From assembly GCA_024516035.1 (NCBI GenBank), contig CM044962.1, forward strand, positions 7,350,659-7,414,658: a stretch of 64,000 bases of DNA, given 5' to 3'. The DNA is from Bactericera cockerelli (lineage: Eukaryota; Arthropoda; Insecta; Hemiptera; Triozidae). How positions within the stretch are numbered: the stretch's first letter is position 1; every line of letters starts with the position of its first letter. Below are positions 5,995 through 55,300 of the stretch, in pieces. A program made the translations under genes and the position numbers. A model generated the notes under the pieces. That model was not told the origin of the DNA, made no database searches, and saw only the letters and a list, made by a program, of their open reading frames with translations.

Positions 5995-6745
5995 TGTGCG
6001 GGTTCAACCTTACGATGCGATGGAGCCAAGATAAATTTCTCGATCGCCAGAACTGTCCGTTTCTTCAATCCAGTGCGAGCGTTCATCCTCACGATGATGG
6101 AGCCAAGATAAATTTCTCGATCGCCAGAACTGTCCGTTTCTTCAATCCAGTGAGAGCGTTCAACCTTACGATGGAGCCAAGATAAATTTCTCGATCGCCA
6201 GAACTGTCCGTTTCTTCAATCCAGTGCGAGCATTCAACCTTACGATGGAGCCAAGATAAATTTCTCGATCGCCAGAACTGTCCGTTACTTCTTCAATCCA
6301 GTGCGAGCATTCGACCTTACGATGGAGCCAAGATAAATTTCTCGATCGCCAGAACTGTCCGTTTTTTCAATCCAGTGCGAGCGTTCAACCTTACGACGAT
6401 GGAGCCAAGATAAATTTCTCGATCGCCAGAACTGTCCGTTTCTTCAATCCAGTGCGAGCATTCAACCTTACGATGGAGCCAAGATAAATTTCTCGATCGC
6501 CAGAACTGTCCGTTTCTTCAATACGATGGAGCCAAGATAAATTTCTCGATTGCCAGAACTGTCCGTCTCTTCAATACGATGGAGCCAAGATAAATTTCTC
6601 GATCGCCAGAACTGTCCGTTTCTTCAATACGATGGAGCCAAGATAAATTTCTCGATTGCCAGAACTGTCCGTCTCTTCAATACGATGGAGCCAAGATAAA
6701 TTTCTCGATCGCCAGAACTGTCCGTTTCTTCAATCCAGTGCGAGT
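5995..6745. repeat. Minisatellite M5, 74-bp and 53-bp units, about 11 copies
   Basis: The units begin GATGGAGCCAAGATAAATTT and contain CTCGATCGCCAGAACTGTCC. Long units add a TCCAGTGCGAG and TTCAACCTTAC segment; short ones lack it. On the minus strand each long unit contains CATCGTAAGGTTG, a donor-like GTAAGG. The right edge abuts the possible terminal exon at 6730-6837. Confidence 0.85.
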
Positions 6746-6837
6746 TCCATGAGGAAGTACTTCTCTACACCGACGCCGCCACTACCTGTGTTTGGCGCCA
6801 TGACGTTGGTGCCGCTTCGAGGTGGTTGAGTGGCGTT
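6730..6837 (-). CDS. Possible last coding exon of the ZNF143-like gene
   Basis: On the minus strand a plausible acceptor (TTTTGCTTCCAG) precedes an open stretch in phase 0, matching the phase 0 end of the zinc-finger exon at 7748. It reads from NATQPPRSGTNVMAPN to a TGA stop at 6730-6732 that lies inside minisatellite M5. A GTAGTG donor inside it (intron from 6785) is an alternative. There is no recognisable similarity to the ZNF143 C-terminus, so this is offered as a candidate only. Confidence 0.3.
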   Translation of the reverse strand, partial: NATQPPRSGTNVMAPNTGSGGVGVEKYFLMELALD

Positions 6838-7019
6838 CTGGAAGCAAAACGACAAGTTAACACATTGCGTGTCAAGAGGTAAAAGCACGACATTATACCC
6901 AATCGGGGCGACGACGTCAGGTATTTTCGCCTGAAGTGGATCATTTACGTCAGACGAAAACGCCTGACGTGGCACGGAATGTGTTAAGCATTTCATTTAC
7001 TTTTCATGAAATATTTTTC

Positions 7020-7345
7020 CTTGACTTTTTTTTCTTTATTATCAATATTATCATCATCATAGGGTGGTGTCATCGTGAACGATGGTAGCCAGACAGTGGA
7101 GGAATGACTCAGCACTTCTACCACTGTCTTTATAAGGAGGCTAATAATTGACAAGGGCCCCCAGAACCAAGCCAATGCTGGGCTACTCCCTGTTTATAGT
7201 CCCCCAGAACCAAGCCAATGCTGGTCTACTCCCTGTTTATAGTCCCCCAGAACCAAGCCAATGCTGGGCTACTCCCTGTTTATAGTCTCCCAGAACCAAG
7301 CCAATGCTGGTCTACTCCCTGTTTATAGTCCCCCAGCCAGACTAT
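7020..7345 (-). repeat. Interspersed repeat R6 with internal 43-bp tandem units
   Basis: It shares ATCATCATAGGGTGG, CATCGTGAACGATGGTAGCC and GACAGTGGAGGAATGACTCA with 45555-45765 (same orientation) and with 48795-49005 (opposite). Bases 7155-7335 are about four tandem copies of a 43-bp unit containing AGAACCAAGCCAATGCTGG. Confidence 0.75.
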
Positions 7346-7487
7346 TTATTATTATTATTTTTAAATAATAAATCATTTGTTTTATTTTTCATATTTTTTT
7401 ATGTATACAGAGGACCCATCCTAAGCAATTTTTAGTTGGCTTCTAAGATTTAATTGACTGAGATTAAATTTCCTGACTACTGATCGT

Positions 7488-7690
7488 GGGAACTCTGCAA
7501 AGGTAGTCACCGTGGTTCGATCTCCAGCCGGTTAGGAATTTTTCTGCCCTGTACTTGGATATTCAGGGTCCACTCATACCTCGTGAATTGGACCTGGAAA
7601 TTGTTGTCTTATATCCAGGTTCTCATGTAAAGGCGGTTATTTCACCCTATAAAGGGTAAATTGGACCTGGAAATTGTTCTCTTATATCCA
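7488..7690 (+). mobile_element. SINE D fragment followed by MITE fragments
   Basis: Bases 7488-7590 match the SINE D head and body (GGTAGTCACCGTGG, GGGTCCACTCATACCTCGTG). Bases 7588-7690 contain two copies of GGACCTGGAAATTGTT and a CTTATATCCA end, also found in the MITE at 49119-49550. Confidence 0.5.
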
Positions 7691-7747
7691 AAATTGACTG
7701 AATTCCTGAAAAAAAAAAAAAAAAAAAAAAAAAAAACCCCCACTCAC

Positions 7748-7927
7748 CCGTATGGTGGTAACTTTCTTCCTGGCGTCCTGCTGGTGCATGGACTTGCGGT
7801 GACTGTTGAGTGTGCACACCTGCCGGTAGGAGCGCGGACACTCGTCGCAGATGAACGGGCGAATGTCCGAGTGCACATGCGTGTGTTTGTACAGGGAGGA
7901 GTACTCGGTGAACCGCTTGGAGCAGCC
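7748..7927 (-). CDS. ZNF143: ZNF143-like exon 8: fingers 6 (second half) and 7
   Basis: Acceptor CTCGCCAG, donor CGG|GTGAGTGG, exactly 60 codons in phase 0. It starts [15 protein letters not shown], completing finger 6, whose first cysteine (CHVS) is in the previous exon. Finger 7 follows as [19 protein letters not shown], then a basic tail ([10 protein letters not shown]). An A-run of about 28 bases lies just inside the downstream intron. Confidence 0.85.
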
Positions 7928-10900
7928 CTGGCGAGACAAAGTCAAGGCATAGCGTGTAGAATTAAAGTCGTATTTTTCTTTCTAACCAAAAAAAAATTCC
8001 TGGTTAGGTTTCTTCCAAATAATTCCATGTCATTCCAAAAGAAAAATGCATTTGGTTACTTTTAAAGATAAACAATGGACTTAACCTATAAAAGAATTGG
8101 AAGCAAGAATTTTCTACTTCCACTTTGGGTAACTTTGGAAGTGGAAATTTTCCTCTTCCAAAAGAAAAATGACTTGCTTCCAGTTTGGTTCACTTTGGTT
8201 AGAAAGAAAAATAGGGCTTAAGAAGTGAGGAAACGAACCCCACTTGCATGGAAACGCCACATAGCACGCAACATCGCAAAGGAGTAGAATATTTCTCGGG
8301 GTCTGTCTCGGTATGAACTGTTTAATTTTTTTGTTGTTGTTGTAATTTTGTAAATATTTGGCATCTTTATTTATTAAATAATACATAGACAGCCTACAAG
8401 TTTATGTTTACAGTTGATACGGGGGAAGAAATTTTGTGAGGGACGAAGAGAGGAGACTCCTTTGCGATACTAGCGCTGAGGACCCCACGATGCAGGCCGG
8501 CGGGGGTTGGTTTCCACACTTCTTATTTCTACACGCTATGGTCAAGGTATTATTAGTGAGTTTGTGCTAATTAAATTGGCGGTGTGAANNNNNNNNNNNN
8601 NNNNNNNNNNNAAATTTTTTTTTTTTTTTTTATAAATTATTTTAAAAGGGGCGCAACTTTAGGTTGAGTTATATGCTCCTTTCAAAATGGTATCATTTAT
8701 TTACAAGTATAAGGAAATACAGAATAAGGAAAAGGGGTATAAATAGAAATAAAAATATACAAGAAAGGATAAATATAAGGATATAACAAAAAGGGAAAAA
8801 GGGTATAAATAAAAATAAAAGTATAACAAGTTAAAATAATAAGTAGAAGGGAAAAGATATCAGAATACAATGGAATACAAATAATAAGGAGGAGTTGGTT
8901 TTGGGTCTAAAAATTATTAATAATAGGAGAAGGGAAGTATTCAGGTTAGATTTTTTTATATACATGTATTTCTTTTAGGAACATCATTAATTTGTCCATT
9001 TTAAAAGAGGAGTCTCCTAAAATATCCATTAATTCTTTATTAGTATAATTATATTTGATTCGAATATCTTTGTATTTTGGACAATATCTAAGAATATGAT
9101 CAACTGATAATATAATGTCAGGGCAGAAAGTACATCTTGGAGGGTCAGTTTTCTCCATTAGAAATTGATGTGTTATTAATGTATGCCCTATTCTTATTCT
9201 AGTGATTATTTTTTCTTCAAGGCGATTGTTTCTATTAGAACTCTCCCAAGGATTAACATCTTTTTTAATTAATTTTATTTTGTTAGGAGTATCTATGTCA
9301 TCCCACCATGTTTGCCATTCTTTTTTAACTTTATTTTTTAAATAAATTTTTAAATCAGACATGGTAATAATGTCTATAGTAGAATTATGGTTGTTGGATT
9401 TAGCTATTTGATCAACTTTCTCATTGCCGGAAATTCCACAGTGGGAAGGGATCCAGACAATAGATAGTTTAATCCCCATAGAAATTAAAAAATGGCAGAG
9501 TTCTTGAATTTTTTCAATAATTGAATTTTTGGGGCATAATTTGTTCATTGACATAGTTAAGCTTTGAGAATCAGTAAAAATAATAATTTCTTTGGATTTA
9601 GAGGAAAAATCATATTCTGAAGCATGCTTTAGACACATTTCCATAGCAATAGCTTCAGCAGTAAAGCTAGAAGATATGTTATTAAGTTTAGCACTTTTTG
9701 CAATATCTAAAAATTTAAAAGCTGATCCAACGCCAGATTCACTTTTTGAGCCATCAGTATAGCAAATAATTGCATTCTTAGATATTTTTGATAAAAATTC
9801 ATTAAATTTATGTTTGAATTCTATTGGGTAGGCAGAATTTTTTTGTTGGTTTGAAATTTTATGAAAAAAGGGAAAGTTGTTTTTCCAAAAAGGAAGTAAA
9901 TTATTAGATGTATGTAAGAGAGGGAAAAGAGTTTTGATATTATGATTATTTTCATAAAATCTTAAGCTTAAAGGTTTAGTTTTGCCATAGAAAATATGTA
10001 TTATATCATATTCACTAATACCCATTACTATGTCCTTCATTGGGTTTATGAATTGGAATAAAGTTTTAGCAACATAATTATTAATAAGATACATGCGTCT
10101 ATATTGTAAGGGAGGTTCGCCAGCATCAACAAGCAGATTTTCAATTCTGCTTGATTTAAATGCACCAGTAGCTATTCTAATAGCATTATTTTGGATTGGT
10201 TCTAGTCGATTGAGTTGGAATTTACTAGCGGACCCATAAATTGGGGCACCATATTCAATAATTGGTCTAACATAACTTTTGTAAAGTCTTAATAAAATTT
10301 TTCTACTAAGTCCATGATTTTTGTTATTTAAAATTTGTAAAATATTAGATGCTTTAATGGCTCTGGCTCTAGTGTAATCTATATGGAATTTCCATGTGAG
10401 GCGGGCATCAAATATCATCCCTAATATTTTAATTTGGTTAAACTTTTGAATTACGATATTGTTAAATACAAGATCAAAAGAAGGGCTAGGTCTTCTTCTA
10501 GAAAAAAATATCATTTTTGTTTTTTCTTCGGAAAATTTTGGGCCGTTAGATTTAGCCCAACGAGTCAAGGAATTTAATGTTTTTTGTAAAGCTAATTGGA
10601 TGGAATCGGGATTTTTATGGGTCATATAGAAAATGATATCATCAACATATATGCTATATCTCACGGGATTATTGAAACATTTGGAGATATCAGATATTAC
10701 GATATTCCACAGTGTTGCGCTTAGAGACGAACCTTGCAAGATTCCGTTCTCTAAGTTATACAGTGAGGAAAGGGAGTTGTTTACTTTAACTTGAATGCTT
10801 CGGTTATTTAGGAATTTTTCAAGATAAGTGAAAATTCTACCATTGATATTCCATTTATTTAATTTTTGTAGTATTTTGTGTTTCCAAGTGAGATCAAAAG

Positions 10901-13900: not shown

Positions 13901-16900
13901 CGGCGATTAAGCCTTTGCACTCCAACTATATTGAAATTGCGAGCATCAATATTCGCTAGGATTTCATCATCAGTGAAGTCAGGATCAATATCTTTTAAAA
14001 TTGCAAATTTGTAAAGGTAATTGGCAGGAATATAGACATTGTATGTCTTTAGGATTTCAGGATTGGAAGCCAATGTATTGGCATCAGCACAAGAATTACA
14101 GCTTACCACAATTTTTGATCTAGTTATCCGATTGAAGTGAGGTATATTTGAGGAAGGAAGGATAGTGGTTACCATTTGTCCAACTTTGAACTTGCATAAG
14201 TAGGGGTATTTCACATTTGGTTGTTTCTTGGTTTCAAAAATAACTTTATATTGTTCATATTTGACATCTTTGTTGTATAAGGAAATCGGTTTAGGCACTT
14301 CATTGTCATTAGGCTGGGGGCCTGTGCCCCCAGAGTTGTCACCCATTTTGGGTTGTCTTAAATGTTCTTAGATTATAAATCACATTTCAGTTGAAAAATG
14401 GCCCGCACAGAAAAAGAAAGAACTGTTTTACTATACACAGGAACACAATTCGAAGCAGTAAAGGTTCTCACAAATTTAGGAAAGACTCGAAATTTTAGGC
14501 TTTCTATGGAAAATTGGAAAAGGCCTAAAAAATTTACGGAGAAAACCAGAAAAGGTCCTCACTCAACGAGTTTAGATGGGGTCTGCACAAAAAGAGCTAA
14601 AATTACGAAAATTTGAATTAATGCGGTTCATTTGTTAAATAAATATAAACAAAACTTCAGCAACTTTAGTTCCTATTTCTATACTATCTTCATTCATTAA
14701 TGAATTCTACAATAGTGGGAGAAAACTCAAAAGTAGAGAAAAAATAACAGGGAAAGGAGAAATTTCACATTTCGTAGGGAAAAATCCCCGAAAAAGAGGG
14801 AAAAACAAAATATACTACCCAAACTAAAAACATTAAAAAAAACTCCGAATCGATGGCTATCTTCTACCGTGCTAGGTAGCTTCACACGGGTAATTAAATT
14901 AACGTTATGCTGATTGAACTTTTCACGTTTTTTGACGAAATAGTTTTACGAAAAAAAAAAAAAAAAAAAATAGGGTGACGCTAATTTTCAAAAGTCGTTT
15001 CTGCACATGCGCGCAACGAGTTTTCCCCTCGAAGTTTGTGCTCGTTCGTTTTGAAAACATGGGTTGATTTTTTCTTATCATATTTGTGTTAATTGCTTTT
15101 GTGATATCACAATTACCTACACTAGCTTTACTAAATTTCTGTTTTACGTGGGACTCTCAACACTGACCTCCAGAAAGCCAAAGTATTATTATCTGACCTG
15201 GTTGTAGAGTTTTCAGTAAAACACTTGCAACTAACACGGCGACCTAATTAGATTGTTGTAAGGTTTGTAATTCAAGGTAACTTTATGGAAACTTCATAAT
15301 TCGTTAATTCTATAATAATGAGAATGACTAACCAAGACGAGACACATATGGTTTCTCTACTCACCAAGACGTGACACACATATGGTTTCTTTACTCACCA
15401 AGACCTAATACACATATGGTTTCTCTACTCACCAAGACGTGACACACATATGGTTTCTCTACTCACCAAGACCAAACACACATATGGTTTCTCTACTCAC
15501 CGAGACCTAACACACATAAATGGTTTCTCTACTCACCAAGACCTAACACACATATGGTTTCTCTACTCACCGAGACCTAACACACATATGGTTTCTCTAC
15601 TCACCGAGACCTAACGCACATATGGTTTCTCTACTCACCGAGACCTGACACACATATGGTTTCTCTACTGACAGAGACCTAATACACATATGGTTTCTGT
15701 ACTCACCGAGACGTGACACACATATGGCTTCTCTACTCACCAAGACCTAACACACATATGGTTTCTGTACTCACCGAGACCTAACACACATATGGTTTCT
15801 CTACTCACCAAGACCTAACGCACATATGGTTTCTCTACTCACCGAGACCTAACACACATATGGTTTCTCTACTCACCGAGACCTAACACACATATGGTTT
15901 CTCTACTCACCGAGACGTGACACACATATGGTTTCTCAACTCACCGAGACGTGACACACATAAATGGTTTTTCTACTCACCGAGACGTGACACACACATG
16001 GTTTCTCTACTCACCGAGACGTGACACACATATGGTTTCTCTACTCACCGAGACGTGACACACATATGGTTTCTCTACTCACCAAGACCTAACACACATA
16101 TGGTTTTCTCTACTCACCGAGACGTGACATACATATGGTTTCTCTACTCACCGAGACGTGACACACATATGGTTTCTCAACTCACCGAGACGTGACACAC
16201 ATAAATGGTTTCTCTACTCACCGAGACCTAACACACATAAATGGTTTCTCTACTCACCGAGACGTGACACACATATGGTTTCTCTACTCACCGAGACATG
16301 ACACACATATGGTTTCTTCACTCACCGAGACCTAACACACATATAGTTTCTCTACTCACCGAGACGTGACACACATATGGTTTCTCTACTCACCGAGACT
16401 TAATACACATAAATGGTTTCTCTACTCACCAAGACCTAACACACATATGGTTTCTCTACTCACCAAGACCTAACGTACATATGGTTTCTCTACTCACCGA
16501 GACGTGACACACATATGGTTTCTCTACTTCTCACTTTTCTGTTTATACTGATTAAAATAGAGAGGTTAGTTGATGACATGGATAATTGGATATTCCGAAC
16601 AATTACCTGCTGATGAGAGCAAATAAGCTCGAAACAGCTGTCCAGGTATGTTCTGATATTCATATACATCTAATACAACTTCTCACTTTTCTGTTTATAC
16701 TGATTATACTGACTGATCTACTCACCGAGACCTAACACACATAAATGGTTTCTCTACTCACCGAGACGTGACACACATATGGTTTCTCGCCCGAGTGGAT
16801 GCGCATGTGATTCTTGTAGTTGGTGGCCGAGGCGAACGATTTGTCACACCCCGGTTGATCGCACACGTACGGCTTCTCACCGGTGTGCGTGCGGATGTGA

Positions 16901-19900
16901 ACCTTGCGAATGTTGGAGGTGGTGAAGGACCGGTTGCAGCCCAGCATCGGACACGGGAACGGTCGCTCGCCTGAGAATAATAATGTTTTTGTTTTTTTTT
17001 TTTATAATAGAAGCAACTACACCAACATGTCACAAAAGATCTATGTAAGGTCGCAGTGACAAAGAGCTTTCGTAGCCAATAGCCCTACTTTACCAATACC
17101 AACTACACCAACACAGATATAAAGTCAACGGCTAGATGCCCGGCTAGATGCCAACGATTCTATTTGATTTAACGTCCTGGATTAAGACGAGGGTTTTACC
17201 CTCCATTCGCTGGGAGTCGTACCAGCTACCCACATTAACCTCACCCAGCCTGGGTAGGGCCGGAAATGCCAGCCTCACATGTACGGGGGGGAACAGAATT
17301 TCTGTGTGAAAAATCTGCTCCGACCGGGGATCGAGCTCAAGGTCTCTGGACTACGGGCAGTAGTCACAACCAATACGCCATGGAGGCTGATGGTTTGCCT
17401 ATAACTAATAAATATGGTAATATAATAATGAATAAAAAGGAGGGGGAGGGGGGATTATAAATATTTCTGAACACATCTCACCGGGGTTAAGTGACATTCT
17501 CTGCCAATTAACCGCGATCAAAAAAGGGAAAAATATAATTAGAGATTAAAACTATTCTTCCTTTTTTTTTTTTTTTGCATACACATAATATTTTATTAAA
17601 CATAAAAAACATTATTCAGGACATCATCATTTGGATGACAACCCAAAACGCTTGCAGCATTGCCTCGTTGAACTGCAAGGCTTATCTATTGCAGCAAATA
17701 ATTTCCCGATCTTGGGTCTCCAGTCTTTTTTACAATGGACCTTTTCAATTCTTCTAGTCAGTGTTTAGCTTCTTTACAAATCGGCCCCATTGTTTCAATT
17801 GCAAACCCTTTCAAAAGTGTAATTCTGAATAGTTTTAAGAGATTAAAACTAGTTGACCAATTTAATCATAGCTCATGTCAGAGTTCACATAAGGTAAAAA
17901 ATGTCCGCACGCAACCTACCTGTATGTGTCCGCACTCAACCCAGCTGTATGTGTTCTCACTCAACCCACCTGTATGTGTTCCCAGGCAACCCACCTGTAT
18001 GTGTTCTCACTCAACCCACCTGTATGTGTTCCCAGGCAACCCACCTGTATGTGTTCTCACTCAACCCACCTGTATGTGTTCTCACTCAACCCACCTGAAT
18101 GTGTTCTCACTCAACCCACCTGTATGTGTTCCCAGGCAACCCACCTGTATGTGTTCCCAGGCAACCCACCTGTATGTGTTCCCAGGCAACCCACCTGTAT
18201 GTGTTCTCACTCAACCCACCTGTATGTGTTCCCAGGCAACCCACCTGTATGTGTTCTCACTCAACCCACCTGTATGTGTTCCCAGGCAACCCACCTGTAT
18301 GTGTTCCCAGGCAACCCACCTGTATGTGTTCTCACTCAATCCACCTGTATGTGTTCCCAGGCAACCCACCTGTATGTGTTCCCAGGCAACCCACCTGTAT
18401 GTGTTCTCACTCAACCCACCTGTATGTGTTCCCAGGCAACCCACCTGTATGTGTTCCCAGGCAACCCACCTGTATGTGTTCTCACTCAACCCACCTGTAT
18501 GTGTTCCCACTCAATCCACCTGTATGTGTTCCCAGGCAACCCACCTGTATGTGTTCCCAGGCAACCCACCTGTATGTGTTCTCACTCAACCCACCTGTAT
18601 GTGTTCCCAGGCAACCCACCTGTATGTGTTCCCAGGCAACCCACCTGTATGTGTTCCCAGGCAACCCACCTGTATGTGTTCTCACTCAACCCACCTGTAT
18701 GTGTTCCCACTCAATCCACCTGTATGTGTTCCCAGGCAACCCACCTGTATGTGTTCCCAGGCAACCCACCTGTATGTGTTCTCACTCAACCCACCTGTAT
18801 GTGTTCCCAGGCAACCCACCTGTATGTGTTCCCAGGCAACCCACCTGTATGTGTTCTCACTCAACCCACCTGTATGTGTTCCCAGGCAACCCACCTGTAT
18901 GTGTTCCCAGGCAACCCACCTGTATGTGTTCCCAGGCAACCCACCTGTATGTGTTCTCACTCAACCCACCTGTATGTGTTCCCAGGCAACCCACTTGTAT
19001 GTGTTCTCACTCAACCCACCTGTATGTGTTCCCAGGCAACCCACCTGTATGTGTTCTCACTCAACCCACCTGTATGTGTTCCCAGGCAACCCACCTGTAT
19101 GTGTTCTCACTCAACCCACCTGTATGTGTTCTCACTCAACCCACCTGTATGTGTTCTCACTCAACCCACCTGTATGTGTTCCCAGGCAACCCACCTGTAT
19201 GTGTTCTCACTCAACCCACCTGTATGTGTTCTCACTCAACCCACCTGTATGTGTTCCCAGGCAACCCACCTGTATGTGTTCTCACTCAACCCGCCTGTAT
19301 GTGTTCCCAGGCAACCCACCTGTATGTGTTCTCACTCAACCCACCTGTATGTGTTCTCACTCAACCCACCTGTATGTGTTCCCAGGCAACCCACCTGTAT
19401 GTGTTCTCACTCAACCCACCTGTATGTGTTCTCACTCAACCCACCTGTATGTGTTCTCACTCAACCCACCTGTATGTGTTCTCACTCAACCCACCTGTAT
19501 GTGTTCTCACTCAACCCGCCTGTATGTGTTCCCACTCAACCCACCTGTATGTGTTCCCACGCAACCCACCTGTATGTGTTCTCACTCAACCCACCTGTAT
19601 GTGTTCTCACTCAACCCGCCTGTATGTGTTCTCACTCAACCCACCTGTATGTGTTCTCACTCAATCCACCTGTATGTGTTCCCAGGCAACCCACCTGTAT
19701 GTGTTCCCAGGCAACCCACCTGTATGTGTTCTCACTCAACCCACCTGTATGTGTTCCCAGGCAACCCACCTGTATGTGTTCCCAGGCAACCCACCTGTAT
19801 GTGTTCTCACTCAACCCACCTGTATGTGTTCCCACTCAATCCACCTGTATGTGTTCCCAGGCAACCCACCTGTATGTGTTCCCAGGCAACCCACCTGTAT

Positions 19901-22900
19901 GTGTTCTCACTCAACCCACCTGTATGTGTTCCCAGGCAACCCACCTGTATGTGTTCCCAGGCAACCCACCTGTATGTGTTCTCACTCAACCCACCTGTAT
20001 GTGTTCCCAGGCAACCCACCTGTATGTGTTCCCAGGCAACCCACCTGTATGTGTTCCCAGGCAACCCACCTGTATGTGTTCTCACTCAACCCACCTGTAT
20101 GTGTTCCCAGGCAACCCACCTGTATGTGTTCTCACTCAACCCACCTGTATGTGTTCCCAGGCAACCCACCTGTATGTGTTCTCACTCAACCCACCTGTAT
20201 GTGTTCCCAGGCAACCCACCTGTATGTGTTCTCACTCAACCCACCTGTATGTGTTCTCACTCAACCCACCTGTATGTGTTCCCACTCAATTCACCTGTAT
20301 GTGTTCCCAGGCAACCCACCTGTATGTGTTCTCACTCAACCCACCTGTATGTGTTCTCACTCAACCCACCTGTATGTGTTCCCAGGCAACCCACCTGTAT
20401 GTGTTCCCAGGCAACCCACCTGTATGTGTTCTCACTCAACCACCTGTATGTGTTCCCAGGCAACCCACCTGTATGTGTTCTCACTCAACCCACCTGTATG
20501 TGTTCTCACTCAACCCACCTGTATGTGTTCCCACTCAATCCACCTGTATGTGTTCCCAGGCAACCCACCTGTATGTGTTCCCAGGCAACCCACCTGTATG
20601 TGTTCTCACTCAACCCACCTGTATGTGTTCTCACTCAACCCACCTGTATGTGTTCCCAGGCAACCCACCTGTATGTGTTCTCACTCAACCCACCTGTATG
20701 TGTTCTCACTCAACCCACCTGTATGTGTTCTCACTCAACCCACCTGTATGTGTTCTCACTCAACCCACCTGTATGTGTTCTCACTCAACCCGCCTGTATG
20801 TGTTCCCACTCAACCCACCTGTATGTGTTCCCACGCAACCCACCTGTATGTGTTCTCACTCAACCCACCTGTATGTGTTCTCACTCAACCCGCCTGTATG
20901 TGTTCTCACTCAACCCACCTGTATGTGTTCTCACTCAATCCACCTGTATGTGTTCCCAGGCAACCCACCTGTATGTGTTCCCAGGCAACCCACCTGTATG
21001 TGTTCTCACTCAACCCACCTGTATGTGTTCCCAGGCAACCCACCTGTATGTGTTCCCATCAACCCACCTGTATGTGTTCTCACTCAACCCACCTGTATGT
21101 GTTCCCACTCAACCACCTGTATGTGTTCCCATCAACCCACCTGTATGTGTTCCACCAACCCACCTGTATGTGTTCTCACTCAACCCACCTGTATGTGTTC
21201 CCACTCAACCCACCTGTATGTGTTCCACGTCAACCCACCTGTATGTGTTCTCACAACCCACCTGTATGTGTTCCCAGCAACCCACCTGTATGTGTTCCCA
21301 TCAACCCACCTGTATGTGTTCCACTCAACCCACCTGTATGTGTTCTCACTCAACCCACCTGTATGTGTTTCCCACAACCCACCTGTATGTGTTCCACTCA
21401 ACCCACCTGTATGTGTTCCCAGCAACCCACCTGTATGTGTTCTCACTCAACCCACCTGTATGTGTTCCAGGCAACCCACCTGTATGTGTTCTCACTCAAC
21501 CCACCTGTATGTGTTCCACTAACCCACCTGTATGTGTTCCCACTCAACCCACCTGTATGTGTTCCAGCAACCCACCTGTATGTGTTTCCTCACCAACCCA
21601 CCTGTATGTGTTCCACTCAACCCACCTGTATGTGTTCTCACTCAACCCACCTGTATGTGTTCCACTCAACCCACCTGTATGTGTTCTCACTCAACCCACC
21701 TGTATGTGTTCCACTCAACCCACCTGTATGTGTTCTCACTCAACCCACTGTATGTGTTCCCAGGCAACCCACCTGTATGTGTTCTCACTCAACCCACCTG
21801 TATGTGTTCTCACTCAACCCACCTGTATGTGTTCCACTCAACCCACCTGTATGTGTTCCCAGGCAACCCACCTGTATGTGTTCTCACTCAACCCACCTGT
21901 ATGTGTTCTCACTCAACCCACCTGTATGTGTTCCCAGGCAAACCCACCTGTATGTGTTCTCACTCAACCCACCTGTATGTGTTCCACTCAACCCACCTGT
22001 ATGTGTTCCACTCAACCCACCTGTATGTGTTCCACTCAACCCACCTGTATGTTCCCAGGCAACCCACCTGTATGTGTTCTCACTCAACCCACCTGTATGT
22101 GTTCTCCTCAACCCACCTGTATGTGTTCCCACTCAACCCACCTGTATTGTTCCCAGGCAAACCCACCTGTATGTGTTCTCACTCAACCCACCTGTATGTG
22201 TTCCCACTCAACCCACCTGTATGTGTTCCCACTCAACCCACCTGTATGTGTTCCACTCAACCCACCTGTATGTGTTCCCACTCAACCCACCTGTATGTGT
22301 TTCCCACTGTTGTTTCACCCACCTGTATGTGTTCCCAGGCAACCCACCTGTATGTGTCTCACCACAACCCACCTGTATGTGTTCTCACTCAACCCACCTG
22401 TATGTGTTCTCACTCAACCCACCTGTATGTGTTCCCAGGCAACCCACCTGTATGTGTTCTCACTCAACCCACCTGTATGTGTTCCCACTCAACCCACCTG
22501 TATGTGTTCTCACTCAACCCACCTGTATGTGTTCACACTCAACCCACCTGTATGTGTTCCCACGCAACCCACCTGTATGTGTTCCCACGCAACCCACCTG
22601 TATGTGTTCACTCTCAACCCACCTGTATGTGTTCCCACTCAACCCACCTGTATGTGTTCGCACTCAACCCACCTGTATGTGTTCCCACGCAACCCACCTG
22701 TATGTGTTCATTCTCAACCCACCTGTATGTGTTCCCACTCAACCCACCTGTATGTGTTCTCCACTCAACCCACCTGTATGTGTTCGCACTCAACCCACCT
22801 GTATGTGTCCGCACTCAACCCACCTGTATGTGTTCCCACTCAACCCACCTGTATGTGTTCGCACTCAACCCACCTGTATGTGTTCCCACTCAACCCACCT

Positions 22901-25900
22901 GTATTGTTCACTCTCAACCCACTGTATGTGTTCCCACTCAACCACCTGTATGTGTTCTCACTCAACCACCTGATGTGTTCCACTCAATCACCTGTATGTG
23001 TTCCACTCAACCACCTGTATGTGTTCTCACTCACCACCTTATGTGTTCCCACTAACCACTTATGTGTTCGCACCACCACCTGTTGTGTTCTCACTCACCA
23101 CCTGATGTGTTCTCACTCACCACCTGTTGTGTCTCACTCACCCACCTTATGTGTTCTCACCAACCCACCTGTATGTGTTCGCAGAACCCACTGTATGTGT
23201 TCTCAATCAAATTTTATTGTTTACTCATTCATATACATAATTTCCATAAAACCACATTAGTTACACCTCAACTATATTGTTCTCATTCAAACTGTAAAGT
23301 TGTTATACATTGATTGTTCTACAAATAAAGGCAAGTGTGTAATCATTTTTATGTGTTTCACCCGAGGAAAACTGTAGAGTTAAACTGAAATTTAATGGTC
23401 GTTTTTTAGATCTCAAAAAAAAGATTGTTGTAGAAAAGCATTTGTATTGTTTTATAAAACCTTATGGATTCTCACCAACCACCTGTATGTGTTCGCACTC
23501 ACCCAGTCTGAACGCCTTCGCACTCACGCACCGGTACGGTTCTCCCTTCGATTCCCTGTATGGGATTGCCATCAACCACCTGTAGGGCCTCCAGGCAAGA
23601 CCTGAAAGGTTCCAGGCAAGGCAGGAATGCCAGCAACCCGTTTGTTTATGAAAAATGATGTGTTCTCACTCAACCCACCTGTATGTGTTCTCACTCAACC
23701 CACCTGTATGTGTTCTCACTCAACCCGCCTGTATGTGTTCCCACTCAACCCACTTGTATGTGTTCCCACGCAACCCACCTGTATGTGTTCTCACTCAACC
23801 CACCTGTATGTGTTCTCACTCAACCCGCCTGTATGTGTTCTCACTCAACCCACCTGTCTGTGTTCGCACTCAACCCACCTGTATGTGTTCTCACTCAACC
23901 CACCTGTATGTGTTCTCACTCAACCCGCCTGTATGTGTTCTCACTCAACCCACCTGTCTGTGTTCGCACTCAACCCACCTGTATGTGTTCTCACTCAACC
24001 CACCTGTCTGTGTTCGCACTCAACCCACCTGTATGTGTTCGCACTCAACCCACCTGTATGTGTTCACACTCAACCCACTGTATGTGTTCCCACGCAACCC
24101 ACCTGTATGTGTTCCCACGCAACCACCTGTATGTGTTCACTCTCAACCCACCTGTATGTGTTCCCACTCAACCCACCTGTATGTGTTCGCACTCAACCCA
24201 CCTGTATGTGTTCCCACGCAAACCCACCTGTATGTGTTCATTCTCAACCCACCTGTATGTGTTCCCACTCAACCCACCTGTATGTGTTCTCACTCAAACC
24301 ACCTGTATGTGTTCGCACTCAACCCACCTGTATGTGTCCGCACTAAACCCACCTGTATGTGTTCCCACTCAACCCACCTGTATGTGTTCGCACTCAACCC
24401 ACCTGTAGTGTTCCCACTCAACCCACCTGTATGTGTTCCCACTCAACCACCTGTATGTGTTCTCACTCAACCCACCTGTATGTGTTCTCACTCAACCCAC
24501 CTGTATGTGTTCCCACTCAACCCACCTGTATGTGTTCGCACTCAACCCACCTGTATGTGTTCTCACTCAACCCACCTGTATGTGTTCGCACGCAACCCAA
24601 CTGTATGTGTTCAAATTCAAATCAAATATTTATTGTGATATTTATACATAAACATTTTACATAATTTACAATAATATTTTTACCTACATAAAAAAACCCT
24701 AACATTAGTTACACCTGTCTAACTTAATATCTAGCTTTCTACTTATTCAGAACTGGGGAAGTTAATAATGATAGGATAAATAGTTATACATTGATTTGTT
24801 CTAGCAAAGTTATAAAGGATGCAAGTGAAATAGTAAGGTCTATATTGTTCTGATAGTCGTTGTACAGTTGCATTGCTCTGTTGATGGGAGATAATTCTGA
24901 GTGAGAAGTTAGAGGTACTTTGAAAGTTTTAAATTGAGAATTTCTTGTTCTTTCAGATCTCGAGTTGAAAAAAAGATTGTTGTAAAGAAAGGGAATGTCA
25001 ATTTGTTTATTGTAAATTTTAAAAAGAAAAACTAGAAAGCTTCTTATGTGACGACTTCTGTTCGCACGCAACCCACCTGTATGTGTTCGCACGTGCTTCT
25101 GCAGGTCCCCCGACGTCTTGAACGCCTTCGTGCAGCGCTCGTACGAGCACCGGTACGGTTTCTCGCCCGTGTGGGTGCGGATGTGCGCCTTGCGACTGTA
25201 CTGGGTGGCGAAGGCCTTGCCGCAGTACAGGACCGGACACTTGTAGGGCCGCATCCCGGAGTGGATGCGGAGATGAACCTGAGAGGGAGAAAAAAAAGCG
25301 TTTCCTAAGTGTCAAGTGGCAGAGAATGCCTAAGGCATTAACTTCGCCCCGGATTCTGTTTATACTGATTAAAATAGAGAGGTTAGTACATCTAGTACAA
25401 CTTCTCACTTTTCTGTTTATACTGATACTGATTACAAAACAATTGTTATCAAAAATTCATATTAATCTTTATTTCTTTTTGTACATTCTTCTAAGTTTTT
25501 TTTTTTTTTTAATTTATTGTTACTTTTTTTTGATGATTGTTGCTACTTTTGTTTTATTGTTACTTTTGTTGATGATTGTTTTGTAAAAAAAATAAAGTGT
25601 AAATAAATAAATAAAAATAAACTTCTTTGTAACAATTATATATTCATAATAATATAATAATAATTCCGTGTCCGTGAGATAGGTATTGATACTTAAATCA
25701 CGGTGGTGAGAGGATTATATGGACACTTGTAGGGCCGCATGCCCGAGTGAATGCGGAGGTGAACCTGAGAGAGAAAACAAAAGCGTTTCTTAAGTGTTAA
25801 GTGGCAGAGAATGCCTAAGGCATTAACTTCGCCCCGGATTACAAAACAATTGTTATTAAAAATTCATATTAATCTTTATTTCTTTTTGTACATTCTTGTA

Positions 25901-36660: not shown

Positions 36661-36661
36661 T

Positions 36662-37940: not shown

Positions 37941-37987
37941 AATAATAATAATAAATCTTTCGTTTCATTCAAATCTTTTCCAAACAG

Positions 37988-38890
37988 GCCCAGAACAGAC
38001 AGAGCTCTACATAGATAATCTGGATGTCCAGGTGGGCAATGATCCACTCAGGGTCGCCTTCTGTCAATGTGGAACCATCAGACATGCGCGGGTGGTTCGA
38101 GACCAGTCCAACAAGAGTGAAGGAGTTGTTTTCTTGAGTATTTACAAGCCAGAAGTTGCGAAGAGAGCTATGACTGAAATGAATGGCAAAATGATAGGCG
38201 ATTTCCATCTCTTTGGCAAAACGAAAGCGATTTCAATCTCTTTGGTAGAAAAACCAGGACGAAGAATTGGCAACTACGGGCCCCTGAGGAAAGATACAGT
38301 GTGCGTCCGGAATCTAGAGGAAACCATCACCAGCGAAGAACTGAGGTATTGGTTCTTGAATTTTGGAGGCATTGTGCAGGCCAAAGTCCTGCTGGATGAA
38401 AACGGAAAGAGCCGCCGCATTGGGTTTGTGCAGTATCTGTGCGGTCGCGCCGCAAAGGAGGCTGTGGCCCTCTGGAACGGGTGGGTGCTGAAGAAGGAGC
38501 CAATGTTTGTGTCATTTGCTGAGATCCCGCCAGGGAAGACACCCGCGCCTTCTCGCCCCGATGGTTTTCAAGTGGATAAAATATTCGTCGGAAAAATTAC
38601 CCGACAACTTATCTGGACTGCAGGGACTTTTCAGCCGCTTTGGTCCTATTCTTGAAGCCAGAAAAGAGAGACACAGCAACTTTGGATTTGTTCGTTTCTT
38701 CGTTGCTGACTCCGCTGAGCAAGCAGTAAAGGAAATGAATGGCTATGTGATTGGGTCCCATCGGATCAGGGTTTCTCTTGCCCATAACAAACGGACACAT
38801 CGGAAATTCAATCCTGACGATCCGTATTCAAGGAAACCAACTTATCTCGATCTGTATGAAGATTTTTGGACCAAGCACCCAGATGTCTAG
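37988..38890 (+). CDS. Second RRM (PABP-like) block, three RRMs, one frame break
   Basis: The acceptor TTTCCAAACAG opens a frame without ATG (PEQTELYIDNLD), so this too is an internal or last exon. Three RRM domains correspond to RRMs 2-4 of the block at 34092: TELYIDNLD...; TVCVRNLEE/RRIGFVQY; KIFVGK...FGFVRFF. The frame breaks at an AAAAA run near 38597 within the last RRM (RNP2). The shifted frame continues LPDNLSGLQGLFSRFG to a tail NPDDPYSRKPTYLDLYEDF and stops at 38890. AATAAA follows at 39049. It has higher GC than the first block, mainly 38280-38560. It is a tandem paralogue or an alternative downstream exon; the break may be assembly error or decay. Confidence 0.72.
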
Positions 38891-40406: not shown

Positions 40407-40444
<38 letters not shown>

Positions 40445-43400
40445 ATCATTGCTAAAAGTTCCGCTAAGTACATTATTTTGTACTTTTCGTGAGTTAATCT
40501 CAGAACCATCCTATCAATAGGTGTATAGTTGTATACGTTTATGGAATATAATATCTAATCCACCCTATAATTTGAACATCTATGAAGAATTAGTTAACTC
40601 TTTGAGAGATAAACTTCTCAAACTATCACATGTTCCACTGAGAGACTAGAGCATTGTTAGCAAAGTTTTTATTTTTATTAAGAGATTTTTTTTTTAATTT
40701 TCAATTATTTTTTTTCAGGCTAGGATATTTCTTATTATATTAAGATTGTAGTGTTAAGTATTGAAAACTTGTATAAATGGGTAGTTCCCGTAAGTTTATA
40801 TAAAATTAAAACTAATCAGAGCCTCCGTGGAGTAACAGTTGTGACTACTGCCCGTCCAGAGATCCTGAGTTCGATCCCCGGTCGGAGCAGACTTTTCACA
40901 CTGAAAATTCTGTCATCTCCGTACACGTGAGACTGGGATTCCCGGTCCTACCCAGGCTGGGTGAGGTTAATGTTTAATGTATGTAGCTGGTACGATTCCT
41001 AGCGAATGGAGGGTAAAGCCCCCGTCCAAATCAGGACGTTCAATCAAATAGAATCGTTGGCTTTAGGAAGGGCATCGAGCCGTAAAAATGTGCCACAACC
41101 AACCAACCTCAACCATGAGGTTGAAAAATGCCGACCCCAAGTAGTATTGGGAAAAGGCAAAGTGAAAGAAGTCTGTGTTATACTCGTAGCTTGCCCATCC
41201 CAATAGTATGCCTCCCCTCTAATGGCGAGAAGTGACACAATACTTTCCATTTAGGTGCTGGTTCAACACGAGTGCACCGGAAGGCATCCCTTAAAATTTG
41301 GAATACAAATTATTTGTCGGCTCGGGAGTTCGAACCAGGGAACTCCTGCATGACAAGCGAGTACCTTACCACTGAGCTATGAATGCTCTATTTCCTAATG
41401 GTGGTTCTAATGGTGGTCAGCTGATGTTGGTTACCCGATGGTGGTTCTAATGGTGGTAACCTGATGGTGGTTACCCAATGGTGGTTTAATAGTGGTAACC
41501 TGATGTTGTTTACCCGATAGTGGTTCTAATAGTGGTAACCTGATGTTGTTTACCCAATGGTGGTTTAATAGTGGTAACCTGATGTTGTTTACCCGATAGT
41601 GGTTCTAATGGTGGTAACCTGATGTTGTTTACCGAATGGTGGTTACCCAATGGTAGTTACATGATGGTGGTCACCTGATGTTGGTTACCCGATGGTGGTC
41701 ACCTGATCTTGTTTACCCGATGGTGATTCTAATGGTGGTAACCTGATGTTGGTTACATGATGGTGGTAACCTGATGTTGGTTACATGATGGTGGTAACCT
41801 GATGTTGGTTACATGATGGTGGTAACCTGATGTTCTTTACCCGATAGTGGTTCTAATGGTGGTCACCTGATGTTGTTTACCGAATGGTGGTCACCTGATG
41901 GTGGTTACCCTATGGTGGTTACGAAATGGTGGTCACCTGATGTTGGTTACCCGATGGTGGTTCTAATGGTGGTAACCTGATGTTGTTTACCTTTAACCGA
42001 CCTCAGTAGCTTGATCGATAAGCCGGCGGACTTGTAACCTGGAGGTCCGTGGTTCAAGTCCCGGTTTCAGCGTAGATTTAGTAAAGCGAGTTTGAGTAGT
42101 TGTGATATCATGAAAGATGATTAACACAAATATGATAACTTTAAAAAAAAAAAACTTTTAAACTTTTTGTTTACCGAATTGTGGTAACCTGATGTTGTTT
42201 AGCGAATGGTGGTCACCTGATGGTAGTTACCTTTGAGCTTGGCGGGGCGTAGGTCCTCCGCCTCCACTTGCACGGGCGTATCCTCCACCAGCACCGCCAT
42301 GGGCACCGTCTGCACCTTCAGAATCTTCTTCACCACCCCGTCTAGATAGCGCACGCGCAGGAAGGACTGTAGGTCCTGCTCTATCACCGCGGGGTAGTAG
42401 ATCTTGTCTGCCCAGATAGCCAGAACTGTCTTGCCTGAAGATACATTAGAAAGTAATAAGATACATTGGAAAGTAATAAGATACATAATAAGGGTTGGGT
42501 GGAAGAGATTGCCATAGGCAATAACCCCGCCCTTTAGTTAGGACATATGTATATATTTTGTTTTTATGTTTTGTTTTTTTTCTTCCTTGTTTATATTATT
42601 AATATTGTCTATTTTTATATTTACCATTATTTGTCTGTATATATATGTTCTTCCTACTAATAAAGAGTTTATAAATAAAAAATAAATAAAAATAAATACA
42701 TTAGGAAGTAATAAGATATATTAGAAAGTAATAAGATACATTGGAAACTACTAATTTATTTGCATAAATAATTTGTACATAATAGTTATAATAGGTAACA
42801 TATATTTAATGCGACTACCCCACAATAAGGGGATACAGTCCTCTTGTTTTGTGAGGTAGTTAGATACACTAAGGTAGATACACTGGAAATCAATCAGATA
42901 AACTGGAAAATAATAAGATACATTGGAAAGTAAAAAATAATAATAAAAAAAAATCACGAAATAATAAATGTGTTTTCTAGCTAGTGTCAACGGCACAATG
43001 AATGAAGCTACACAAGGACATATTTATTCTGTCCTGGTATATCAGTGGTAAAGGCGGTACTCTGTAAATCTAGAGATTCCAGAGGTCGTGGGTTCAAAAC
43101 CCAGCCGAGACATGAGAAGTTATCATCCCATATGGGATTTTTACCACATAAAAAAATGGCTTGGGCACTGCTGGAATGATGGGACTTTAATAGTCTTAAT
43201 CGGGCAGTATAAATAAGGCGATATTATTATTATTATTTTTATGGTAAAGAAGAACACCCACCTGGGTCATAGACGTTAGCAGCCATGGCGGAGAGTTTGG
43301 GAGGAATCTGAAACAAAGAATGAAACTAATGTAAATAAAACGAGAGGCAATTGTAAAGTCCACCACATACTTCAAGGCACAAGAGTAATAACACTTTTTA

Positions 43401-49400: not shown

Positions 49401-52302
49401 AGAGAACTAGAGATATGTACCTAAGAGAAACCTCTATCTATAAGAGAACAATTTTCAGGTTCAATTTACCTTTTTATAAGAGAAAAGTGGATATAAGAAA
49501 AAAAAATTCTGGCCTTTTCAGTTATCTTATATCCAGGTTCGACTTTGCGTTAACACCTGTTAAGATAAAAATAAGAATTCTCTTGAGTGGAAGGTGTGAT
49601 GCAACAAGAATAATAAAGGAAAAACTCTTTAGTGAAAGGTGACCAACAGACGAGGTTAATGCAGCATTTTTAACCACCTAACCCTTAGAGTCTTATTATT
49701 TTGTGATCATATACTCAAATAAATGAGGTAAAATTCATGCATTGGGTGCGATTCGAACCTAGTTTGCTGAGCAGGGGTGATAAGCTGATAAGTTAGGGGT
49801 CTGGGTGCTAGTATGATTTGGCTTGTGTGTGTACTCACCTAGTTTGCTGAGCAGGGGTGATAGGTTAGGGGTCTGGGTGCTAGTATGATTTGGCTTGTGT
49901 GTGTGTACTCACCTAGTTTGCTGAGCGGAGGTGATAGGTTAGGGGTCTGTGTGCTAGTATGATTTGGCTTGTGTGTGTACTCACCTAGTTTGCTGAGCAG
50001 AGGTGATAGGTTAGGGATCTGGGTGCTAGTATGATTTGGGTGGAAGAGATTGCCACAGGCAATAACCCCGCATTTTAGGTAGGACATTAACTTCATTCTC
50101 TTTTTTTTTCCTTGTATCTTTGTTCAATCTTTTTGTTTTTCTTTATAATTTCATTGTATTTTACTGTATATATTTTTGTTCTATCTAATAAAGCTTATTA
50201 TAATAATAATAATTTGTCTTGTGTGGGTGTACTCACCTAGTTTGCTGAGCAGGGGTGATAAGTTGGGGTCTGGGTGCTAGTATGATTTGGCTTGTGTGTG
50301 TACTCACCTAGTTTGCTGAGCAGAGGTGATAGGTTAGGGATCTGGGTGCTAGTATGATTTGGCTTGTGAGTGTGTACTCACCTAGTTTGCTGAGCAGAGG
50401 TGATAAGTTAGGGGTCTGGGTGCTAGTATGATTTGGCTTGTGTGTGTACTCACCTAGTTTGCTGAGCAGAGGTGATAAGTTAGGGGTCTGGGTGCTAGTA
50501 TGATTTGGCTTGTGTGTGTGTACTCACCTAGTTTGCTGAGCAGAGGTGATAAGTTAGGGGTCTGGGTGCTAGTATGATTTGGCTTGTGTGTGTGTACTCA
50601 CCTAGTTTGTTGAGCAGAGGTGATAAGTTGGGGTCTGGGTGCTGGTATGATTTGGCGTGTATGTGTGTGTACTCACCTAGTTTGCTGAGCAGAGGTGATA
50701 AGTTAGGGGTCTGGGTGCTAGTATGATTTGGCTTGTGTATGTGTACTCACCTAGTTTGCTGAGCAGAGGTGATAAGTTAGGTATCTGGGTGCTAGTATGA
50801 TTTGGTTTGTGTTTGTGTACTCACCTAGTTTGCTGAGCAGAGGTGATAAGTTAGGGGTCTGAGTGCTAGTATGATTTGGGTGGAAGAGATTGCCACAAGC
50901 AATAACCCCGCCCTTTAGGTAGGACATTAACTTCATTCTCTTTTTTTTTTTTTCTTCTTGTATCTTTGTTCAATCTTTTTGTTTTTCTTTATAATTTCAT
51001 TGTATTTTACTGTATATATTTTTGTTCTATCTAATAAAGCTTCCTATAATAATAATTTGGCTTGTGTGTGTGTACTCACCTAGTTTGCTGAGCAGGGGTG
51101 ATAAGTTAGGGGTCTGGGTGCTAGTATGATTACTCACCTAGTTTGCTGAGCAGGGTGATAGGTTAGGGGTCTGGGTGCTAGTATGATTACTCACCTAGTT
51201 TGCTGAGCAGGGGTGATAAGTTAGGGGTCTAGGTGCTAGTATGATTTGGCTTGTGTGTGTGTACTCACCTAGTTTGCTGAGCAGAGGTGATAGGTTAGGG
51301 ATCTGGGTGCTAGTATGATTTGACTTGTGTGTGTGTACTCACCTAGTTTGCTGAGCAGAGGTGATAAGTTGGGGGTCTGGGTGCTAGTATGATTTGGCTT
51401 GAGTGTGTACTCACCTAGTTTGCTGAGCAGGGGTGATAAGTTGGGGGTCTGGGTGCTAGTATGATTTGGCTTTTGTGTGTACTCACCTAGTTTGCTGAGC
51501 AGGGGTGATAAGTTGGGGGTCTGGGTGCTAGTATGATTTGGGTGGAAGAGATTGCCACAGGCAATAACCCCGCCCTTTAGGTAGGACATTAACTTCATTC
51601 TCTTTTTTTTCCTTGTATCTTTGTTCAATCTTTTTGTTTTTCTTTATAATTTTATTGTATTTTACTGTATATATTTTTGTTCTATAAAGCTTACTATAAT
51701 AATAATGTGGCTTGTGTGTGTGTACTCACCTAGTTTGCTGAGCAGAGGTGATAAGTTAGGGGTCTGAGTGCTAGTATGATTTGGGTGGAAGAGATTGCCA
51801 CAGGCAATAACCCCGCCCTTTAGGTAGGACATTAACTTCTTTCTCTTTTTTTTCCTTGTATCTTTGTTCAATCTTTTTGTTTTTCTTTATAATTTCATTG
51901 TATTTTACTGTATATATTTTTGTTCTATCTAATAAAGCTTCCTATAATAATAATAATTTGTCTTGTGTGTGTACTCACCTAGTTTGCTGAGCAGGGGTGA
52001 TAAGTTACGGGTCTGGGTGCTAGTATGATTTGGCTTGTGTGTGTGTACTCACCTAGTGGGTGCTAGTATGATTTGGCGTGTGTGTGTGTGTGTTTTCACC
52101 TAGTGGGTGCTAGTATGATTTGGCTTGTGTGTGTGTGTGTGTGTGTGTGTACTCACCTAGTTTGCTGAGCAGGGGTGATAAGTTGGGGGTCTGGGTGCCA
52201 GTATGATTTGGCTTGTGTGTGTGTACTCACCTAGTGAGTGCTAGTATGATTTGGCGTGTGTGTGTGTGTGTTCTCACCTAGTGGGTGCTAGTATGATTTG
52301 GC

Positions 52303-52339
<37 letters not shown>

Positions 52340-55300
52340 CACCTAGTTTGCTGAGCAGGGGTGATAAGTTAGGAGTCTGGGTGCTAGTATGATTTGGCTT
52401 GTGTGTGTGTACTCACCTAGTTTGCTGAGCAGGGGTGATAAGTTAGGAGTCTGGGTGCTGGGAGTAAGTTCGGTGACGATTAGAGAGAGCACCTGGTTGG
52501 TTGCCTCGCAGCGGATCTCTCTCAGCGTGGCTGTGCAGTTCACAGTGTGGGTCTTCGTTATCTGGGGAGGCGAGAAAACTACGGTAATTTTAAATTTTCT
52601 TTAAATTAAAATAAATTTTAAAATTTCATTTATATCATGTGTATAGCAATATAGCACACATAGAAGAATGCATATTGAAATGCTAAATTATAATAAATAA
52701 ACATCCAAAGGTCATTTCACATTAAAAAAAAAAAAAAAAAAAAAAAAAGGCTAAATATAAAACTATTTCAAAACTAACGCACCAGAACCAACCAGTCTCG
52801 AGCCTCAAATGGAAAAGCAAAAGCAAACTTCCAAAGTACAGAAAAACTCCGATTCTTGGGTGGAAGAGATTGCCAAAGGCAATAACCCCGCCCTTTAGTT
52901 AGGACATATACAGGGTGATCGAAACCACCCAGCCACTATCTTTTTCTCGAGAACGGTTTGAGTTAGGATCTTGAAACAAAAAATTAGTCCCCAATATGGA
53001 GTCTGAAGTTTCATGAGAAAATATTTTGAACCTACGCCCACCGCCCCTAAGGGCGTTTTCAGGGGGGCACATGTCCGTTTCTCCCGAATTTTAAATGGAA
53101 TGCATATTTTTTTATTTTACATTCAAAACATGCAAAGCAAGTTAGTAACACTAGTAAAAAGAAAAAAAATATTCCTTGGTTCGAGTCCCGAAAAAACACG
53201 GCTTTTAGAAGAAAATAGACCCAGGTTCCGGAAGTCATTACGGGCACCCGGTAAACGTTGTAAAAAAAAACAAAAATGTCAAAAAATAGGTAAAGTTCTC
53301 CTCTTTAATTAAATGTACTTACTTTTATTCTTCAAGTAAGTCATAGGTCCTTAAATTGGTCATAAACTTTTTTCAGGTTCAAAAGACCAAAAGTCCAGAA
53401 ATTTAAATTCGACCCCCTATTTTTTTTTTCTTCAACATAAAAGTAGAAAATAAGTAGCATACAATGCAAAAAAAATTAACTCTCTGCGATTTTTTTTCTG
53501 AAAATGGCAGACGAATAACCTCTGAAAAGCGTTCATTTCCGTGCGCGTGTGTCATGACACGAGTCCGTGCCTGAAGTTTGTATGTACGATGTAGATAACT
53601 CACCTCTACAGATGTTCAAAAACACCACCCTCTGCTGCAATACATTTCCTGAGTCTGCCAGAATAGGTGGCATGAACTCTCTCTAGCTCCTCAGGTGTGA
53701 TGTTCCGGCAGATCTCAATGATACGCAGCTTCATATTTTCCACATCTGTTGGCCTGGTTCGGTATGCTAAATCTTTCACCTTTCCTCACAGGTAAAAATC
53801 AATGACGGTGAGGTCCAGGGTGCCGGGGGGATAAGGGTTTGGTTCTCCTTTGTCGATCCATCTTTGAGGGAAAAAGCGATCAAGTTGTTCTCGCACCCTC
53901 AGATAAAAATGGGGTCTAATTTAACCTATTCACTTGATCCTTGGCAGATAGCTGTTGATGCAAGGAAAATAATGAAAATTACTCTCCTTTAGAATTTGCT
54001 CAATGCACGTGTAAGGAATGGCCGAATCTCTTGCTATACGAGTACCTATCTCGGATGCTGACTTCATGGTTTACAGTAACCGCAGAACGAACATTAATAA
54101 TATTATCATCAGTTGTCGTTCTTTTTCTAATTTTGTAGAGGTGAGTTACCTACATCGCACATACAAACTTCAGGCATGGACTCGTGTCATGACTTCATGA
54201 CTCACGCGCATGGAAGTGAACACATTTCAGAGGTTATCGCAGAAAGTAAATTTTTTTCGTCTTTCCGCACCCTGGACCTAACCGATTTTCACCTGTGGGG
54301 AAAGGTGAAAGATCTAGCATACCGAACCAGGCCAACAGATGTGGAAAATATGAAGCTGCGCATCATTGAGATCTGCCGGAACATCACACCTGAGGAGCTA
54401 GAGAGAGTTTTTTTTTAAAAAAAAAAAAGATGAGTGTTTCACAGCCTTTTTTATTTCGTAGCCATGAAACAGGAGCTACTGTAGACGCTTGTGGTCTGTG
54501 TTGCAGCCTGCCCATCCCGTAGTACGCCTCCCCTCTGATGGGCGAGAAGTGACACAATACTTCCCATTTAGGTGCTGGGTCAACACGAGCGCACCGGAAG
54601 GTAACCCTTACAAACAACTGTAACCAAATTTTGAATACAAATTTTTGTCGGCGCGGGGGTTCGAACCCGGGACTTTCCGCATGGCAAGCGAGTGCTTAAC
54701 CACTGAGTTCATGCCACCTATCCTGGCAGACTCAGGAAATGTATTGCAGCAGAGGGTGGTGTTTTTGAACATCTGTAGAGGTGAGTTATCTACATCGTAC
54801 ATACAAACTTCAGGCACGGACTCGTGTCATGACACACGCGCACGGAAATGAACGCTTTTCAGAGGTTATTCGTCTGCCATTTTCAGAAAAAAAATCGCAG
54901 AGAGTTAATTTTTTTTGCATTGTATGCTACTTATTTTCTACTTTTATGTTGAAGAAAAAAAAATAGGGGGTCGAATTTAAATTTCTGGACTTTTGGTCTT
55001 TTGAACCTGAAAAAAGTTTATGACCAATTTAAGGACCTATGACTTACTTGAAGAATAAAAGTAAGTACATTTAATTAAAGAGGAGAACTTTACCTATTTT
55101 TTGACATTTTTGTTTTTTTTTTACAACGTTTACCGGGTGCCCGTAATGACTTCCGGAACCTGGGTCTATTTTCTTCTAAAAGCCGTGTTTTTTCGGGACT
55201 CGAACCAAGGAATATTTTTTTTCTTTTTACTAGTGTTACTAACTTGCTTTGCATGTTTTGAATGTAAAATAAAAAAATATGCATTCCATTTAAAATTCGG

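Follow-up and report, generated by a model that had tools for sequence, protein, structure and literature searches.

The stretch of DNA analysed here (the window) comprises 64,000 nucleotides of the Bactericera cockerelli genome (G000:C8:7350659-7414658; genome of 565 Mb in 1032 contigs), and positions are those of the window unless a contig is named. It contains two minus-strand genes, the introns of which host four minisatellite arrays, termed M1 to M4. The first gene encodes a C2H2 zinc-finger protein (zf-C2H2 matches), which we take to be ZNF143-like; its matches among solved structures are generic zinc fingers. Two of its zinc-finger exons, at 25077..25278 and 16762..16970 (both minus strand, zf-C2H2), provide the donors at which M1 and M2 are seeded, respectively. 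The second gene hosts M3, at the donor of a coding exon at 52417..52561 (minus strand), and M4, at the donor of a Tudor-type exon at 42231..42434 (minus strand). The M3 exon is an open frame running from the acceptor CTCCCCAG to the donor CTAG/GTGAGT (the slash marks the junction), for which no Pfam match was found. The M4 exon matches Tudor domains of the 53BP1/PHF20 type, namely SH3_Hsr9 Tudor (1.1e-5, just under its cut-off) and PHF20L1 Tudor (0.001); a weak PHD match in the same gene (0.00089) is below the cut-off. The last exon bases, as read from the sequence, are 25077 (M1), 16762 (M2), 52417 (M3) and 42231 (M4).

The window also carries several other features. An intron of the zinc-finger gene harbors a long LINE open frame of 1255 residues (8946-14367, minus strand) with endonuclease, reverse transcriptase and RNase H regions, accompanied by upstream open reading frames. 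Two RRM-like open frames, each several hundred codons long, lie on the plus strand at 34077-35288 and 37942-38890, the former with four RRM stretches and a PABP4-like protein of Diaphorina citri as its best named match. One window protein has its closest named relative in Diaphorina citri as well (51% identity), and three unnamed matches score higher. In addition, a short tandem element with the core CTACTCCCTGTTTATAGT occurs on either strand at 7158-7336, 45684-45760 and 48803-48877; it recurs in other stretches of the genome and looks like a dispersed repeat.

All four arrays were detected by TRF, each on the intron side of its exon. M1 (17890..24612, minus strand; 271 copies by TRF from 17908) has a 25-bp unit reading ACACATACAG/GTGGGTTG on the minus strand, to which the exon contributes 16 bases and the intron 9. 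The exon end GTGCGAACACATACAG is followed by GTGGGTTGC and next by GTGCGAACA, and about 450 bp of non-repeat DNA (24613..25060) intervene between the exon-proximal unit and the main array. The exon-type variant is kept in the two exon-proximal units, whereas homogenisation of the distal half has left chiefly two variants, which follow one another in a repeating order (91 and 60 of the 242 units overall), a pattern as expected under slippage or unequal exchange. M2 (15342..16788, minus strand) has a 34-bp unit with TCTCG/GTGAGTA at the junction, in which GAGAAACCATATGTGTGTCACGTCTCG/GTGAGTA contributes 27 exon and 7 intron bases, and forms two blocks (15342-16528 and 16717-16788), being interrupted between about 16529 and 16716. 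The M3 unit (49757..52460, minus strand), CAAACTAG/GTGAGTAC, is 72-74 bp long, with about 43 exon and about 30 intron bases, and the array contains internal deletions and is interrupted by a segment that recurs. M4 (41395..42230, minus strand) is a diverged array based on a 14-bp unit, ATCAG/GTAACC, that takes just the last exon base (G/GTAAC) and no exon stretch, and presents cryptic CAG/GT sites. The unit thus spans the exon-intron boundary clearly in M1 to M3 and by a single exon base in M4.

A sequence-only reading of the window had proposed that each array begins at an exon donor and extends only into the intron, and that every unit of M1 to M3 contains the exon end plus its GT. TRF and the sequence bear out the placement of all four arrays, with the gap in M1 and the interruption in M2 as exceptions to its continuity. 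The alignment of units with exon ends is confirmed, and the donor GT stands at its place in 232 of the 242 M1 cores found, in 27/27 M3 cores and in 30/31 M4 cores, and GTGAGT in 35 of the 36 M2 cores. Within the window, junction arrays were seen at donors only. At least eight other likely exon ends in the window, read by eye, have no adjoining minisatellite according to TRF. A further array of 74-77 bp units, M5 (6018-6734), shows a weak donor-like site with no exon seen at its edge.

The zinc-finger gene has a close copy 83 kb away and a third copy on contig C580. Colinear pieces longer than 500 bp in the 83-kb copy are 91-99% identical to the window (the longest, 6.8 kb, at 98.9%), and a 212-base query over the M2 exon matches it at 100%. 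M5 is present in this copy as well, and alignment of the copies revealed no counterpart of the LINE stretch. Across the three gene copies M1 cores number 242, 22 and 10, and M2 cores 36, 12 and 68; the C580 numbers carry little weight, as the exon copies are rearranged there, and the three copies may be alleles separated by the assembler or true paralogues, so that the length differences may be non-allelic. At C580, a 226-bp tandem repeat holds part of the M1 exon itself (L014-L016). Elsewhere, the arrays at C1:491k and C1:1305k, which look like copies of one gene, have 24 and 14 units. That the arrays are artefacts of assembly might be suspected from such closely similar loci, which may be haplotypes kept apart, and from the assembly gaps in the window (N runs at 8589 and 33423). 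We consider this extremely unlikely, given the ordered unit variants along M1 and the common anatomy of many unrelated arrays (21 donor units, described below).

Enrichment of tandem repeats at donors throughout the genome, by which the sequence-only reading was to be judged, was assessed by counting sets of three AGGTRAGT motifs, each starting 16-46 bp from the next. This revealed 8463 such triplets (3959 + 4504), compared to 782 for the reversed motif (344 + 438; a repeat run gave identical totals) and 559 for a GT-to-TG control (210 + 349), although these matches are non-independent, as one array yields many. The single motif differs by only 1.24-fold (70,780 vs 57,287 reversed). The reverse of the GT-to-TG control (1229 triplets) includes the donor-like GAGGTGA and is hence an unclean control. 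When the matches listed are grouped by eye, the initial 4.8 Mb of C1 hold 6 donor-triplet arrays, and about 124 Mb hold 20 reversed-motif arrays, giving a roughly eightfold higher array density for the donor motif, based on few arrays. A donor-like GT site is visible by eye in at least 8 of the 20 reversed-motif arrays, which dilutes the control. Triplets of the acceptor pattern TTTTNCAG are not enriched (336 vs 539 reversed).

Comparison of 21 donor units showed them to be mutually unrelated, with a mean best 20-bp identity of 11.6 vs 11.0 for shuffled units and a maximum of 16 vs 15. This upholds the earlier proposal that position at the junction, and not a shared sequence, is what the arrays have in common, and it argues against a mobile element or family. 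Introner elements are copies of the same sequence family at many intron positions and a known source of repeats that bear splice sites, so that insertion of such an element with its own splice site, followed by expansion, would supply the donors. However, a common sequence family is absent among the 21 units, which differ between genes and match the adjoining exon instead, and we regard an introner or other mobile element as very unlikely.

The edges of 12 arrays were read, comprising all six listed donor arrays and 6 of the 20 listed reversed-motif arrays, the latter mostly chosen for showing a donor-like site. Nine of the 12 adjoin a plausible exon, recognised as an open frame that starts at an acceptor and ends at the repeated donor, and three of these exons have solved homologues: the PDZ domain of X11/APBA (1.6e-31), the HECT domain of AREL1 (2e-5) and the glycine dehydrogenase GLDC (1.8e-26). 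The open frame adjoining the C1:11.9M array has a possible frameshift. At another exon, which we presume to be WDR7-like, just two units lie next to the exon, with the bulk of the array about 400 bp deeper in the intron. No clear exon was seen at the edge of the remaining three inspected arrays (C1:8.2k, C1:7.62M and C3:2.69M). In the vicinity of the window, open frames adjoin two arrays, C8:7334541 and 7432760, and no exon was seen at the edge of the array at C8:7422019, the unit of which is as in 7334541. Two further arrays have a different layout. At C8:7343003-7344524 (L017), an entire exon-like open frame lies within a 318-bp unit present in 4.6 copies, which may be an exon duplication of the same origin as the junction arrays. 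At C3:13947441-13947704, a 24-bp array, TTTTACAGAG/GTGAGTCATTTCTC, in which an acceptor and a donor meet around AG, resembles a repeated exon of near-zero length.

Both exon ends were surveyed at 40 exons hand-picked from 134 protein-kinase matches, blind to repeats and from this one family. Partial domains without stops were taken, one from each noticed near-duplicate pair, with 450 bp on each side, leaving out arrays with fewer than 2.8 copies, a period below 14, a length below 55 bp or near-pure A/T. Near these exons 18 arrays passed the limits, 13 of which carry the junction, and 10/40 exons have at least one junction array. On the donor side, 9 of 11 arrays carry their own exon's donor junction, at 8/40 exons (L042, L045, L055, L058, L059, L064 twice, L070 and L073); this rate is rough, coming from a small hand-picked sample, and lies above that suggested by the genome-wide triplet density. 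On the acceptor side, 4 of 7 arrays carry the acceptor junction, at 4/40 exons (L055 by eye, L062, L065 and L073). Scored over 20 bases, the donor arrays agree with the junction of their own exon at 15-20, compared to a top score of 12-15 among the remaining 39 loci. Two donor-side arrays lack the junction and agree with that of their own exon at 7 and 9 bases; the other arrays without it are three on the acceptor side. L042 was counted at 15 of 20 (profile threshold 16), its unit showing the exon end CCCATGTTCCCAG/GTGAG. Scoring of junction matches against own and other loci led us to drop L077 as an acceptor array.

Because the kinase exons show both donor and acceptor arrays, the arrays are seeded by the exon-intron junction, at whichever end of the exon, and not by the donor alone. 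The restriction to donors envisaged by the sequence-only reading is thus not borne out, and a mechanism confined to the donor or U1 covers too little. A donor specificity that we had first read from the TTTTNCAG triplets was likewise abandoned after these four acceptor arrays, none of the units of which (0/4) would match that pattern. The same observations bear on the idea that selection keeps the extra donors as decoy or backup U1 sites that would tune splicing or intron retention. The retention of GT in M1 and M3 cores would fit such a role, but recent tandem copies are alike in any case, acceptors are repeated as well, and the unit length is not a multiple of three in 12 of the 21 donor units, so that splicing at a downstream donor would in many cases change the reading frame; we judge this role quite improbable.

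Of the 11 donor-side arrays near kinase exons, four span the junction, compared to 0.87 expected under a simple uniform model (P 0.007), and five more lie off the junction yet contain it, those at L059 and the second at L064 adjoining a spanning repeat. These numbers bear on whether a selective filter could account for the arrays unaided: duplications would arise anywhere, exonic ones would be removed, and those touching a junction would be merely tolerated. Growth of M1 to M4 into introns only agrees with such a filter. However, intron interiors should then tolerate arrays equally, yet tandem donor motifs exceed the controls about tenfold, and the spanning and junction-containing arrays near kinase exons point the same way. 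Purifying selection alone explains the sparing of exons, not the repetition of junctions over intron interiors, and a filter acting by itself is in our view unlikely.

Altogether, we are highly confident that the arrays belong with the splice-junction minisatellites known as mirages in amphioxus, in which a segment straddling the junction was tandemly duplicated and the array then grew intron-ward. In the first step, a segment of roughly 14-75 bp across the exon-intron junction would be duplicated in tandem; in the second, slippage or unequal exchange would extend the array, which purifying selection would let grow solely into the intron. The exon-proximal copy would retain a working splice site with the coding sequence unaltered, and the array should be removed together with the intron. 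Judged from sequence, splicing presumably uses the exon-proximal site as a rule. The host introns are probably older than the arrays, and new duplications appear to arise preferentially at junctions. The cause of this bias is perhaps mutational, for instance through breaks or template switching associated with transcription and splicing, a view that we hold tentatively and with some doubt.

Zhuo in 2007 reportedly described human arrays in connection with intron gain by tandem duplication. The view that junction-seeded arrays are an undescribed system is not supported, since the available text on amphioxus mirages already presents tandem repeats spanning exon-intron boundaries, in Adh3 and in the globin genes BflGb6 and BflGb9 (PMC3087553). 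According to that text, mirages occur at both 5' and 3' boundaries and are of unstable length (6 and 3 units in two haplotypes of BflGb6), splicing is apparently undisturbed, and its authors suspect a more general phenomenon in amphioxus (PMC3087553). The psyllid arrays are similar in that the unit spans the exon-intron boundary (M1 to M4, and the donors and acceptors of the kinase exons) and in that both boundaries are affected. Compared to mirages, as there reported from few genes of a chordate, they occur in an insect, reach up to 271 units by TRF and show a measured genome-wide excess.

Intron gain via tandem duplication is an established model (PMC4974935, PMC2812944, as far as their available portions go). 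The Rogers model, in which tandem duplication copies splice signals (AGGT), is illustrated there by potato RdRp and by a 24-bp unit in fission yeasts (PMC4974935); in the cases so described a new intron arises inside an exon, whereas here an existing intron grows. In human paralogues, minisatellites at exon-intron boundaries may form novel introns, with an average of about 4 units of 30 bp, and were studied in segmental duplications, as the accessible part of that report states (PMC2812944). The intronic minisatellite CeRep25B of Caenorhabditis elegans, linked to alternative splicing, resembles the present arrays as a minisatellite near splicing decisions, but it is one family at many sites, and a copy of the adjoining junction is not reported in the text available (PMC4039745). 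Among the literature matches listed, there was no psyllid and no genome-wide case of junction-seeded arrays. The kind itself is known; new here are its occurrence in an insect, and hence in another phylum, the far larger arrays, the genome-wide scale and the measured junction bias.

The origin of minisatellites and the growth and gain of introns are open questions, mostly studied from single cases. By extrapolation, this genome would hold hundreds or more junction-seeded arrays, making both questions statistically testable within it, including which junctions are hit, where the duplications end and whether transcription or splicing strength has predictive value. Gene annotation near such arrays faces many decoy splice sites. 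Junctions copied repeatedly, gene after gene, suggest that splice junctions are a recurrent source of new repeat DNA. Beyond this, we give somewhat less than even chances to the broader possibility that the lineage has a mutational process aimed at junctions, in which case splice junctions would be one of the chief places where its satellite DNA arises and a main engine of its intron growth, and perhaps of new introns.
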